This document shows positions 56,929 to 61,543 of a DNA stretch of 64,000 nt, piece after piece. The DNA is taken from assembly GCA_019359015.1 (NCBI GenBank), contig JAHHID010000030.1, positions 1 to 64,000 on the forward strand, given 5' to 3'. Position 1 is the first letter of the stretch; each line of letters begins with the position of its first letter. A program made the translations under genes and the position numbers. Below the pieces are notes generated by a model. That model searched no databases. It worked only from the letters and a program-made list of their open reading frames with translations, and was not told the origin of the DNA. Source of the DNA: Spirirestis rafaelensis WJT71-NPBG6. Its GTDB lineage: Bacteria; Cyanobacteriota; Cyanobacteriia; Cyanobacteriales; Nostocaceae.

Positions 56929-57555
56929 ATGAGCGATCAAAATCCCTACGAAAAACTTGGGGTATCTGAAGATGCTAGCTTCGATGAAATTCAAGACGCT
57001 CGCAATCGCCTGTTGGAGCAATACAGTGGCGATACAAAGCGTCTAGAAATGATTAACGCGGCTTACGATGCGATTTTAATGGATCGCTTACGGATGCGTC
57101 AGGAAGGTAAAATCAAAGTACCGGAACGCATTCGGTTTCCTGAACGCCTCGTGCAAGCGCCTGCCAAAGAAAGTCCCACCAAGAGCGAACAACTTTCCCC
57201 CGCTTGGCTGCAACGAATCATTGATAAACCAACGCGTCCAGATGTATTGTTACCTGGAGCTTGGTATCTTGGTTTGAGTGCTATTAGTGTGTTTTACCAA
57301 GCCGGGGGCGACCAGGTTTTACAGTTGGCATTGGTGCTAGGTGTTGGTATAGGTATTTACTTTCTCAATCGCAAAGAAGGCAAGTTTGGTCGAGCAGTTT
57401 TGTTGACTCTGCTCGGCTTAACAGTGGGTTTAATTACTGGCGGACTAGTTGCTGGGTTGCTGCCGCAAATGACATTTATCAGTATGATGCCAAATCAGTT
57501 TTCTACTGTGCTGACGTTTATATTGTTGTGGTTGATTAGCAGCTTTCTGCGTTAA
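56929..57555 (+). CDS. CPP1-like protein (DUF3353)
   Basis: A 208-residue membrane protein. The N-terminal 60 residues are a J-like domain (NPYEKLGVSEDASFDEIQDARNRLL, then RLEMINAAYDAILMDRLRMRQEGKI) that lacks the HPD motif of true DnaJ proteins. The C-terminal half (about 105-208) holds four hydrophobic helices. This is the cyanobacterial form of CPP1, a chaperone-like protein of light-dependent protochlorophyllide reductase in chloroplasts. It is probably located in the thylakoid or plasma membrane. Its exact client in cyanobacteria is inferred. Confidence 0.87.
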   Translation: MSDQNPYEKLGVSEDASFDEIQDARNRLLEQYSGDTKRLEMINAAYDAILMDRLRMRQEGKIKVPERIRFPERLVQAPAKESPTKSEQLSPAWLQRIIDKPTRPDVLLPGAWYLGLSAISVFYQAGGDQVLQLALVLGVGIGIYFLNRKEGKFGRAVLLTLLGLTVGLITGGLVAGLLPQMTFISMMPNQFSTVLTFILLWLISSFLR

Positions 57556-57578
57556 AGGTGCTTGCTGTTTGATGCCGA

Positions 57579-58256
57579 TCACTCTAAAAGGAAATCCACA
57601 GCCGCGCTCAAATCCTTGACAATTAAGTCAGGGTTGTATGTTGCCAATTGGGAGCGATCGCGGATGCCACACTCTACAGCGATCACCTTGACACCGTGAT
57701 TTTTAGCCGCGGTGATGTCGGCTTCTGTATCCCCCACCATCCAAGTATCAGCGCATGGTGGTAGTTCTGCTATTGCCCGTTCCATCAGTAAAGGTTTATC
57801 ATCAATGTCGCGGGTTTTAACGTAGTCGTTGGTTAAGCAATAACAGCGATTTTCTGGGAAGAACCTGCCTAAATTGTGTTTTTTAAAGGCATAGTCAAGT
57901 TCTTTAACTCGGCGCATTGTCATTACAGCCAAATCGATCCCAGCTTCCTGAATTTTTAACAGTGCTTCCACAGCGCCTGGGGCAAGGGTATCATAATCAA
58001 AGTAAGGCTCTGTATGCACGGTTTGCCGCCGCAACTGAGCAAATTCTTGTGCTTGCACTTCGTCTAAACCGGAATTTAAGGCAATTTGTTTTTCTGGAAC
58101 GCGCGATCGCTTCAATTGCCAAAATTCCGCTTTAGAAAGTTCTTGCACTGCTTGGTTTGGGCGCAGCGTTTTCTCCAGACAGAATTGATAAACCCGGTAG
58201 TACCGTTCGGAAACATCAATAATCGGACCGTCAAAGTCTGTAATTAGTCTTAACAT
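57579..58256 (-). CDS. HAD family hydrolase
   Basis: A 225-residue haloacid dehalogenase-like phosphatase. Motif I is DFDGPIIDVSERY near residues 7-19, with the nucleophile being the first aspartate. Motif II is TMRRVKELD, and motif III/IV is WMVGDTEADITAAKNHGVKVIAV. The cap is helical (about 20-85). It resembles phosphoglycolate phosphatase-type enzymes, but the DXDG motif is followed by PIIDV rather than TLVDS; the substrate is unknown. It stands convergent with the CPP1-like gene, whose stop is only 23 bases away. Confidence 0.88.
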   Translation of the reverse strand: MLRLITDFDGPIIDVSERYYRVYQFCLEKTLRPNQAVQELSKAEFWQLKRSRVPEKQIALNSGLDEVQAQEFAQLRRQTVHTEPYFDYDTLAPGAVEALLKIQEAGIDLAVMTMRRVKELDYAFKKHNLGRFFPENRCYCLTNDYVKTRDIDDKPLLMERAIAELPPCADTWMVGDTEADITAAKNHGVKVIAVECGIRDRSQLATYNPDLIVKDLSAAVDFLLE

Positions 58257-58360
58257 TTAGAGAAATGTAAATTTTATTTACAGACTAACTTAAATCGTGT
58301 TGTCTTTTGAATTTAAATATTTGATGAGTGAATTTTGAATTATTAATCTTAGCGCCAAAA

Positions 58361-59659
58361 TTATTGCAGGCTACCGCGTTTGATTTGTTCCTTTTCAATC
58401 GCTTCAAACAAAGCGCGAAAGTTTCCTTCACCAAAACCTTGAGCTTGGTAACGGCGCTCTATAAACTCAAAGAAAAAGGTAGGCTGTCCAAAAATAGGCT
58501 GGGTGAAAATTTGTAGCAGTACTGCTTTTTGATTATCTTCTTTCCAGTCTACCAAAATTTCCTGTTTCGCTATCGCCTCAAGTTCAAAGGCTGAAAGCGG
58601 CAATCCTTGTCGCTGTTTTAGCTGCGAGTAATAGCTATCAGGAACTGGAAGTAACGATAAACCACCAGAAGCGCGAAAAAGAGCGATCGCATCAACAATG
58701 TTGGGCGTTTGCAAAGCGATATGTTGAATTCCCGGTCCCCGATTCACGTCCAAAAACTCTTGAATCTGAGAATGAGCCGAAGCAGGTTCATTAATTGGCA
58801 ATTGCACGCTACCGTTACGTGAAAGCATAACTCGGCTGTATAAAGCAGAGCGATCGGTTTTTATTTTAAACGCTTGTTGGGGTTGAAAATCGAGAACCTC
58901 TTCATACCAAGCCACAGCACGTTCTAAATCACCCGCTGCTACGTTTAAGACAATGTGATCTATAGCGGTGATAGAAGAGGACAGGGGGGCAGTGGGGCAG
59001 TGGGGGACTGGGGGAGATGGGGGAGAAATTCCTCCTTGTCCTCTTTGCCCACGGGCACGTTCCTCTCCTTGCCCAAAGCTTTTGCGAACAACGGGGACGC
59101 CACATGCTTCTCCTGTCGGAGACGCTGCGCGAACAACGTTCGTGACCTCCGCAACGCAGTGGCTTGGGAAATACGCACTCGCTGTGTCCTCCCCTTGTCC
59201 CCTTGTCTTTTTGTCCCCAAGTCGTCCCCCTTGTCCCCTTTCAATCAAAGTATGAGTCAAAGAACCCCAAGCGGAGATTTTGCACCACTTGATGTATTCT
59301 TGATTTTGTTGGTATTGCTGAATCGGTTGTAGGACTTTGGCGTTGTGTTGTGCAGCGAGGGCGATCGCTTTTTCCACATCTTCGATAGCAAAAGCGACAT
59401 CTGCTACACCTGGTGGGTGTTGGCGCAAAAACTCAGCGACTGGACTTGTGGGTAAAAGTGGTGAAGACAGCAAAAAGCAGACAGCACCACTTTTCACGAC
59501 TTTTGTGCAAGTGTGAAACGATCCGTACTCGTTGCTTGAATTTGTCAAGGTTAGGGGGATCATATAATCCGTTACCGCTTGAAAGCCGAGATGGCTTACA
59601 AACCAGTCTTGCCAGACGAGCGCATCTTTTACATAAAAGTGAACATGATCTATTTTCAT
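58361..59659 (-). CDS. hppD: 4-hydroxyphenylpyruvate dioxygenase with repeat insertion
   Basis: A 432-residue HppD, which converts 4-hydroxyphenylpyruvate to homogentisate for tocopherol synthesis. The N-terminal VOC domain covers 1-141 (IDHVHFYVKDALVWQDWF). The C-terminal catalytic VOC domain begins at about 230 with the iron ligand histidine 235 (IDHIVLNVAAGDL), then GIQHIALQTPN and the glutamate of TFFFEFIERRY. Between them, about residues 142-228 (58976-59236) consist of low-complexity and interspersed-repeat translation (GQGG, PPSPPVP and similar), absent from the roughly 350-residue family. The insertion keeps the frame. Whether the enzyme remains active is unknown. Confidence 0.9.
   Translation of the reverse strand: MKIDHVHFYVKDALVWQDWFVSHLGFQAVTDYMIPLTLTNSSNEYGSFHTCTKVVKSGAVCFLLSSPLLPTSPVAEFLRQHPPGVADVAFAIEDVEKAIALAAQHNAKVLQPIQQYQQNQEYIKWCKISAWGSLTHTLIERGQGGRLGDKKTRGQGEDTASAYFPSHCVAEVTNVVRAASPTGEACGVPVVRKSFGQGEERARGQRGQGGISPPSPPVPHCPTAPLSSSITAIDHIVLNVAAGDLERAVAWYEEVLDFQPQQAFKIKTDRSALYSRVMLSRNGSVQLPINEPASAHSQIQEFLDVNRGPGIQHIALQTPNIVDAIALFRASGGLSLLPVPDSYYSQLKQRQGLPLSAFELEAIAKQEILVDWKEDNQKAVLLQIFTQPIFGQPTFFFEFIERRYQAQGFGEGNFRALFEAIEKEQIKRGSLQ
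58976..59236. repeat. In-frame repeat insertion within hppD
   Basis: About 261 bases between the two hppD domains contain G-rich short tandem units (ggggcagtggggcagt, cttgtccccttgtc) at the edges and a central interspersed block (gagacgctgcgcgaac, gttcgtgacctccgc) related to the GC-rich family seen elsewhere. Its length is divisible by three and no stop codon is created. Confidence 0.75.
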
Positions 59660-60184
59660 AAACTAGGAAAATCCAGCGCAATAGCTTATCTGTCTGTAGA
59701 TTTTGCCTTTTTTACCGGATTTTCAGGTCTTTCCTAAGCTAGAATTAAGGAATAACAGCTTTGTTTTTAACCATAGAAAAACATAAGATGCCAGGAAAGC
59801 GAGTTAAGGCTCTCTAATGTTGGCGATACTCCCTTGGAGTGGCTTGTCTGCGACACGCTGTGTGAACGCTAACGCACCGACAATGACTTTATCATGCAAT
59901 GGTGCTATTTACATTTATTTACATCATACATAATCAAAAGACTAGGTACAGTATGAGCATATTTTTTAACGCAAAGGGACGCTGAGGTAAGCGCAGAGTA
60001 AAGCAGAGCCTTTGTGATAAATTTATCGAATTTTGTACTAAGGTGTAATATTTGAGCTTGACGTAGTGCTACATGCCAGCGTTCGGCTATTTTTTTAGGA
60101 CATCCTGGCTTACACATCATCATGTTATATCTAGGCAAGAAACCATCTGAAATCCGTGAAACTGCTTAAGGTTAAGGTTAATAC
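59660..60184. other. Gene-free region with interspersed repeats
   Basis: At 59815-59885 lies an interspersed repeat (ggcttgtctgcgacacgctg). At 59960-60005 there is an acgcaaagggacgctgagg type repeat that also occurs at 41497-41545. A 77-codon minus-strand frame (59905-60138) covers these repeats and is not considered a gene. Confidence 0.55.
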
Positions 60185-61468
60185 TTACTTAATCTTTTTA
60201 GCAGGCATTTCTTGTCCATTTTGGTGCAAAACTAACTCGGTCACTTCTCCTTTTTCATTTTTGACAAAGGTTATTTGGGCATAAACTAGCGTGTAGAAAA
60301 ATTCAGTTTCTGATTCTGGGTAGATTTCAATTTTAGATTGTGCAGTAGCTTGAGCAAAAATTTGGTCATTTTCTTTGGTAATTGTAATGAGGAAGTTAGA
60401 AGCTAGTTCATATTCTCCAATATAAGCATCATAGATTTTGGGGTCAACTTTTATTGCAGTTCTTTCTTTAGGTAGTTCATATTTTTCCCCAAAAACAATT
60501 GCGGCTAAGTCTTTACTAATTACATTAATCATTGAAAATCCATTATTGCACAACAAAATGATACAAGTATCATCATTAATATATCGGTCGATATTTGTAA
60601 CAAAACCATTAATTCCGCCACCATGACCGACAACTTTATGATTGAATAGTTCTGTTATTACCCACCCATAACCATAGTTTTCTAGAAAAGGAGTAAAAGC
60701 ATTATCTAAAGAAGTTTTCCGAACGATTTTTTCAGTATATAATGCTCTATCCCACAAATATAAATCTTCAACTGTAGAGTACAAAGCACCTGCACTATAA
60801 CCAATAGAGGTATCTATATAAGGTGCATTTATTGAACCATTACCAGTCATATAGTAACCAGAAGCGCGATTTTTAATTATCTGACTGTAATGGTCATATC
60901 CAGTATTTTTCATCTCCAAACGTTGGAAAATATGCTCTTGGAGATAAGTTTCATAGAGTTTGCCAGAAATCTTTTCGATGATGTAGCCTAATAAAATATA
61001 TCCAGAATTGCAGTAGCTATATTTTTCTCCTGGAGTAAATTCTAAGGGTTTATCTTTAAATTTGTTAATTGTTGTTTCAATAGAAGAAGGTATCATCATC
61101 GTTTCCTCATAATCAGGAAAACTTGTAAAATTAGGAATGCCTGATGTATGAGTTAACAAATGATGGATAGTAATTTGTTTACCTATTTCTGGATAATCGG
61201 GTATATGTTTGCTTATTGGATCATTGACGTTAAGCAAATTTTTTTCTTGCAATTGCATGATTGCCATTGCAGTAAACTGTTTGGTTATGGAGGCTATACG
61301 GAATTTGGTTTGAGGAGTATTAGGAACATCAAGTTCATAATTTGCCATGCCATACCCTTTACTGATTAAAATATTACCGTTTTGAGCGATTAAAATAGAA
61401 CCGCTAAAATAGTATTTCTTGGTATGAACTTGAAGATATTCGTTTACTTTCGCTTCAATGTTTTGCAT
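60185..61468 (-). CDS. Serine hydrolase, beta-lactamase class C family
   Basis: A 427-residue serine hydrolase of the beta-lactamase/penicillin-binding fold (PF00144). The nucleophile motif is SITK (RIASITKQFTAM), the second is YCNSGY (Y-X-N), and the third is HGGGI in place of KTG. The C-terminal 90 residues form a beta-rich lipocalin-like domain (YIGEYELASNFLITITKENDQIFAQ). No signal peptide is visible. Such proteins include esterases and D-peptidases, so antibiotic resistance cannot be assumed. A longer frame starts with TTG at 61498; the ATG at 61468 is preferred. Confidence 0.86.
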   Translation of the reverse strand: MQNIEAKVNEYLQVHTKKYYFSGSILIAQNGNILISKGYGMANYELDVPNTPQTKFRIASITKQFTAMAIMQLQEKNLLNVNDPISKHIPDYPEIGKQITIHHLLTHTSGIPNFTSFPDYEETMMIPSSIETTINKFKDKPLEFTPGEKYSYCNSGYILLGYIIEKISGKLYETYLQEHIFQRLEMKNTGYDHYSQIIKNRASGYYMTGNGSINAPYIDTSIGYSAGALYSTVEDLYLWDRALYTEKIVRKTSLDNAFTPFLENYGYGWVITELFNHKVVGHGGGINGFVTNIDRYINDDTCIILLCNNGFSMINVISKDLAAIVFGEKYELPKERTAIKVDPKIYDAYIGEYELASNFLITITKENDQIFAQATAQSKIEIYPESETEFFYTLVYAQITFVKNEKGEVTELVLHQNGQEMPAKKIK

Positions 61469-61543
61469 GGTAGGTAGAGTAATTATTTGGGTCTGCAAAA
61501 ATATCGGCTCAATTTATCCTTAATATCCAAAACAGGGATATTT

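Follow-up and report, generated by a model that had tools for sequence, protein, structure and literature searches.

The stretch of DNA studied in this work (the window, 64,000 nucleotides of contig JAHHID010000030.1 of the filamentous cyanobacterium Spirirestis rafaelensis WJT71-NPBG6) carries on its minus strand, at 58361-59659, the gene hppD for 4-hydroxyphenylpyruvate dioxygenase (HPPD), an open frame of 432 amino acids whose product scores 318.4 bits against the TIGR01263 model and exceeds its curated cut-off of 277. The protein has two VOC domains, an N-terminal one (residues 1-140, 59240-59659) and a C-terminal one (residues 233-432 plus the stop codon, 58361-58963), both delimited by the profile match, a structure model and the alignment used to estimate the ratio of non-synonymous to synonymous substitution rates (dN/dS). 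Between them lies a repeat-derived linker of 92 codons (residues 141-232, 58964-59239), defined by the alignment and by the local confidence of the model (pLDDT); all the elements of this linker described below are given in window coordinates and read on the minus strand. The closest fold match of the product is human HPPD (3isq, TM 0.73/0.84). Its domains are modelled with confidence, and pLDDT falls below 50 at residues 152-225, so that the linker is predicted to be disordered, and in a second, short patch of the N-terminal domain (residues 35-46).

A first-pass annotation, made from the letters alone, had described a repeat insertion of about 87 residues in hppD, placed in the linker between the VOC domains and free of stops and frameshifts. 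We confirm that the insert is real, an in-frame repeat block in the hppD linker: the TIGR01263 model is interrupted there, its positions 2-149 matching 59174-59656 and its positions 151-352 matching 58370-58987, the 432-aa frame is open, and there is no N in 57001-61000. With regard to its size, 261 nt or 87 codons (58976-59236) are indeed repeat-derived, but this is not the size of the net gain, since the comparison with related hppD genes that had been proposed as a check gives 92 aa for this linker vs 48 and 26 aa at the same site in the two genes of the same genus that can be read across.

Along the coding strand, a G-rich arm of GGGGACAA-type octamers (59190-59240) opens the linker, a dispersed repeat follows, and a C-rich array (58986-59025) closes it; Tandem Repeats Finder reports both arms with a period of 8. 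That an interspersed repeat is flanked here by short tandem units, as was noticed at first sight, is borne out by these arrays and by a 22-mer (59108-59129) that has 29 copies in the genome at no more than one mismatch, vs 0 for its reversed sequence. A 19-mer of the same repeat (59134-59152) has 12 copies at no more than two mismatches, and the linker region and its core match 43 and 40 places of the genome, respectively, hppD itself counted. The segment 58976-59236 has a G+C content of 60.5% (41.9% in the window) and is free of stops in five of its six frames. Openness in at least five frames was reached by 2/3000 dinucleotide shuffles, 0/3000 mononucleotide shuffles and 0/1275 tiles of the window, and a chance open frame was rejected on the basis of these shuffles. 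A plasmid-borne repeat was also considered and rejected, the search having given a single partial match, to a plasmid of Nostoc, over 18% of the query.

The block has a composite structure. A contiguous stretch of contig C40 matches it on either side of 59097-59165 (flanks 59166-59246 and 59001-59096) with 79% identity and lacks the 69 bp in between; therefore, in hppD one repeat appears to have landed within another. Near-full-length copies of the 69-bp piece are present on contigs C114, C29, C48 and C7 with identities of 80-90%, and no clear terminal repeats, which together with a target-site duplication mark miniature inverted-repeat transposable elements (MITEs), were found for it among the inverted repeats listed. 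The C40 copy lies in frame within a beta-ketoacyl synthase gene, so that one repeat material codes in two genes, with the two common pieces read in a different frame in each. As for the 19-mer, 8 of its 12 genome copies lie within large frames and all eight share one frame; only three to five of the six frames are open over each copy, which limits the choice of frame.

The linker site varies among relatives. Of 214 hppD loci, 208 yielded a linker, none of them with an internal stop; as these include duplicates, they represent 157 distinct genes. No linker was obtained from L034, L035, L076 and L078 (C-terminal half only), L226 (N-terminal half only) and L126 (internal stops), L034/L076 and L035/L078 being apparently the same two contigs. 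Linkers of the distinct genes range from 12 to 92 aa with a median of 24, the longest being that of the window, and 67/157 have 20 aa or less. At a lag of 7, the self-match of the DNA of the 95 linkers that reach 60 nt is 0.358, whereas shuffled linkers give 0.264 and stretches upstream in these genes 0.234. Furthermore, a shuffle test on the 145 genes with a genome handle called 72 linkers periodic at 7/8 bp, from 13 of 35 genera, and 0/144 control stretches; 51 of the 72 come from one genus. Close hppD pairs (at least 92% identity) differ in length mostly by 0, 3, 4, 7 or 10 aa (425/511 pairs, which are not independent and hence carry no p-value). In two other genera, judging by eye, the 67-aa linker of L139 (G214) seems to have its own dispersed-repeat insert at the same protein site, and the 43-aa linker of L155 (G003), which is 25 aa long in the congener L158, an independent one. 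An exact 16-mer composed of two octamers occurs in 97/208 family genomes and 22/56 genera, 67 times in this genome, and its reversed control has 10 matches in 5 genomes. Our best reading of these sequences is that the linker between the VOC domains probably tolerates large length variation, and that the hppD insert is probably a composite of repeat material common in this and many Nostocales genomes.

The first-pass annotation had seen in hppD a natural example of translated repeat DNA. The in-frame insertion is real, but it is not singular, being one of many in the hppD of other genera and in other genes of this genome. In a non-random sample of 1.263 Mb, made up of the window and of 60 stretches taken from ten long contigs, we counted 156 arrays with a period of 7 or 8 and a length of 30 bp or more. 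Of these, 25 are contained in a single open frame that continues for 60 aa or more to either side (20 frames in all), and 131 are not. Seventeen of the 20 frames were scanned against Pfam, leaving out C6 119177-121888, C8 99482-100591 and C8 114268-114795, and in one set of 12 a Pfam family was found in 11, one of these below the family cut-off. The matched genes include a PHO4 transporter, a heavy-metal P-type ATPase, LeuA, a Methyltransf_28 protein, PFOR, sensor kinases and a CobN/magnesium-chelatase, the last of which (L317:3935-7930 on C17, minus strand, 1332 aa) holds three separate in-frame 7/8-bp arrays. Arrays are also found in a PEP-synthase-type gene, an LD-carboxypeptidase, a dihydroorotase-type gene (Amidohydro_1) and an O-antigen-ligase-type gene. 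Scaled up from this sample, there would be about 110 array-bearing genes in the whole genome. The LD-carboxypeptidase site has 48 residues here, long inserts in G077 and G078, about 10 residues in G080 and 6-8 in four genomes of other genera, where the insert is nearly missing; single stops in three rows of the comparison all precede the start codon. Variation at one site across genera was also seen in pyrC (30 loci) and in the ketoacyl synthase. In this genome, new protein sequence seems to arise regularly from repeat DNA.

The arrays are also ordered in their orientation. Those of the GACAAG type lie on the coding strand in 15/15 cases within genes (p=6e-5 on a coin toss) and split 9 and 6 outside genes relative to the nearest long frame. 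From six other genera 50 loci were fetched, which left 36 distinct GACAAG arrays when overlapping loci of the same array were dropped; six are in genes and 6/6 are in sense (p=0.03). In our genome GACAAG arrays are found in genes more often than other arrays (15/30 vs 10/126, Fisher 5.7e-7), in a sample of which 53% would count as in-gene. Moreover, the G-rich arm precedes the C-rich one in all 49 two-armed arrays that reach 50 bp, of which 10 lie in genes and 39 elsewhere. This layout of G-rich arm, A/T centre and C-rich arm occurs on either strand, with the opposite order in 0/49.

We consider it likely that stop-poor repeats colonise genes and that the copies which survive are those that keep the frame, are hydrophilic and disordered, and sit at tolerant sites. 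In a first step, 7/8-bp arrays would gain or lose units and dispersed repeats would land within them; the length variation and the copy without the 69 bp are observed, and the molecular act behind them is presumed. Most insertions would then remain open because the units hold few stops in any frame, an openness that we observed for the hppD insert, and a shift caused by one arm could be offset by the other. Selection would purge the copies that break the frame and those that expose the hydrophobic antisense reading (Leu/Val/Pro/Cys), which may be the cause of the strand bias that we observed. The spared copies would give a hydrophilic Gly/Asp/Lys/Gln peptide followed by Ser/Pro, predicted to be translated as a floppy linker joining two folded domains. 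We infer that the long 432-aa product is made from the repeat-bearing hppD; a tryptic peptide predicted inside the linker is GQGEDTASAYFPSHCVAEVTNVVR. More tentatively, and as a possibility that we would not yet call probable, some Nostocales could harbour a gene-dwelling repeat system of two-armed, stop-poor modules, hydrophilic in sense, which spread as frame-tolerant linker cassettes and lengthen core enzymes, perhaps in ~100 genes per genome.

Several points weigh against these proposals. Linker extraction demanded both domains in one frame, so that the sample leans to open genes, and the hppD of a Chroococcidiopsidaceae metagenome-assembled genome (L126:3001-4042) has several internal stops, owing either to decay of the gene or to poor assembly. 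The shuffle test called no linker periodic in 22 of the 35 genera, and therefore repeats are not required at the linker site. The strand rule was tested after the pattern had been noticed, its replication amounts to six cases, two of which seem to concern one orthologous gene, and the high in-gene share of GACAAG arrays (15/30) is not seen elsewhere (6/36). The genes counted in this genome are open frames rather than annotated genes, and one of the 12 scanned array frames had no Pfam match, which adds to the one below the cut-off. Finally, the frame of the 19-mer was compared in same-genus relatives (19 loci, which account for 21 of the 28 places counted in G077-G080), where 1/3 agree, and a fixed frame is weakened as a pattern.

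It could also be argued that the linker is adaptive and kept by selection, either because ribosomes are slowed between the domains by an RNA hairpin or a G-rich run, or because the floppy peptide itself has a function. In fact, hppD linkers fold better than their shuffles (mean z -1.59 vs -0.47 in control stretches of the same genes, with z below -2 in 40% vs 9%; n=146 of the 157 linkers, those of at least 60 nt when 9 nt are added), the window linker reaches z -2.80 with 0/200 shuffles equal to it, and many Nostoc linkers hold long stems of inverted heptamers. However, the arrays of this genome fold no better in genes (mean z -0.85, n=25) than outside them (-1.08, n=131), and many relatives retain linkers of 16-20 aa without repeat signal, and we regard an adaptive linker as unlikely. 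In L167, L169 and other Nostoc hppD linkers, inverted heptamer arrays are paired within coding DNA, with an 18-bp uninterrupted stem in two of them. A known structured RNA in the window linker was considered and rejected, Rfam having given one sub-threshold match (asX1, 20.7 bits vs a gathering threshold of 70, E 0.92).

That hppD is dying or split, inactivated by the insert or with its C-terminal half made separately, is less likely still. The window insert gives the longest linker of all the distinct genes, which would speak for it; however, dN/dS against four relatives is 0.10-0.20 in both VOC domains, though a very recent end of selection could go undetected, and H235, H313 and E398, which we take to be the metal ligands of HPPD, are invariant in 41/41 sequences compared. 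Both halves are under purifying selection, and the enzyme around the insert looks alive. A separately started C-terminal half was rejected, as ATG, GTG and TTG are all absent from the reading frame of the linker and the next in-frame start is codon 249, beyond H235. A second HPPD compensating for a broken copy was also rejected, the TIGR01263 matches in the 7.07-Mb genome being just the two halves of this single hppD. The enzyme had been called essential-looking, which is doubtful: 212/217 family genomes have an hppD match and five do not, some of the genomes being incomplete. HPPD is reportedly dispensable in Synechocystis.

We give even less credit to an assembly artefact by which the repeat was misjoined into hppD. 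The genome is a draft of 143 contigs, contigs of the same-genus genomes G079 and G080 (loci L226, L035 and L034) break in or directly beside the hppD linker, and, next to the two same-genus genes that can be read across, a third assembly stops inside a GGGGACAA array at this point; such breaks would be expected if the repeat disrupts assembly. However, the frame is preserved with no N nearby, and the same-genus loci L033 and L226 have GGGGACAA-type arrays at the same hppD spot. Removal of the insert from the RNA or its skipping by the ribosome, for which the minimum-energy fold of the window linker speaks by pairing both ends in one large stem, is barely conceivable, with no intron family at the insert, a single Rfam match that is below threshold, and nothing that requires removal, because the insert is open and keeps the frame.

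On the upstream side of hppD there is a short repeat-like stretch (59840-59876), similar by eye to the dispersed repeats of this genome, and further on, at 60185-61498 of the minus strand, a 437-aa frame whose product, judged by eye alone, resembles a serine hydrolase of the beta-lactamase type.

The proposed colonisation of genes by stop-poor repeats that are tolerated in linkers suggests a large-scale conversion of repeat DNA to protein sequence in free-living bacteria, in central enzymes and with a measurable strand rule. How proteins acquire new linkers becomes a question that can be tested by tallying orientation, frame and site over many Nostocales genomes, and annotation and structure work on these strains should expect repeat-derived inserts in core enzymes.

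Among the known systems, the small dispersed repeats (SDR) of Nostoc punctiforme are tiny dispersed elements that sit within tandem heptamers, and going by this general description the nested 69-bp piece resembles them. A search of titles and abstracts in the open-licence literature, outside which most subscription journals fall, gave none on in-frame repeat insertion across cyanobacterial genes. The Rickettsia palindromic elements (RPE) are, according to a review, likewise small dispersed repeats lying in frame in protein genes with the extra peptide tolerated, and in-frame fusion by MITEs is there said not to be unusual (PMC10969869). The likeness extends to the presence of arrays both inside frames (25/156) and outside them (131/156) in our sample. 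Unlike the RPE, which are one palindrome of ~150 bp, the material described here consists of tandem 7/8-mers with a nested dispersed repeat and varies in length by units; it also follows a strand rule, and the two genes that carry the hppD composite read it in different frames.

Closer at hand are the short tandemly repeated repetitive (STRR) sequences and G-rich heptamers of Nostocales, which, as in this genome, are G-rich 7-bp units dispersed genome-wide (PMC4692102). In the portion of that study dealing with Nostoc sp. PCC 7120, 32% of the G-rich GGGGA(C/T)T heptamer arrays are intragenic, and therefore arrays inside cyanobacterial genes have already been published. The heptamers within genes are described there as under-represented on the coding strand (PMC4692102), the opposite of the GACAAG octamers found here, every in-gene array of which lies on that strand. 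A further difference is the two-armed layout, G-rich then C-rich, which is general in our sample. Finally, the P6b stem-loop of the Nostoc trnL intron (PMC4476775), a good parallel, also holds heptamers, often as inverted arms, tolerated in a variable loop where they have been replaced independently in several lineages, and the STRR heptamers of rnpB likewise occupy a variable loop of a gene. The repeats of P6b (PMC4476775) and rnpB sit in structured RNAs, whereas those of hppD lie in a protein-coding linker.
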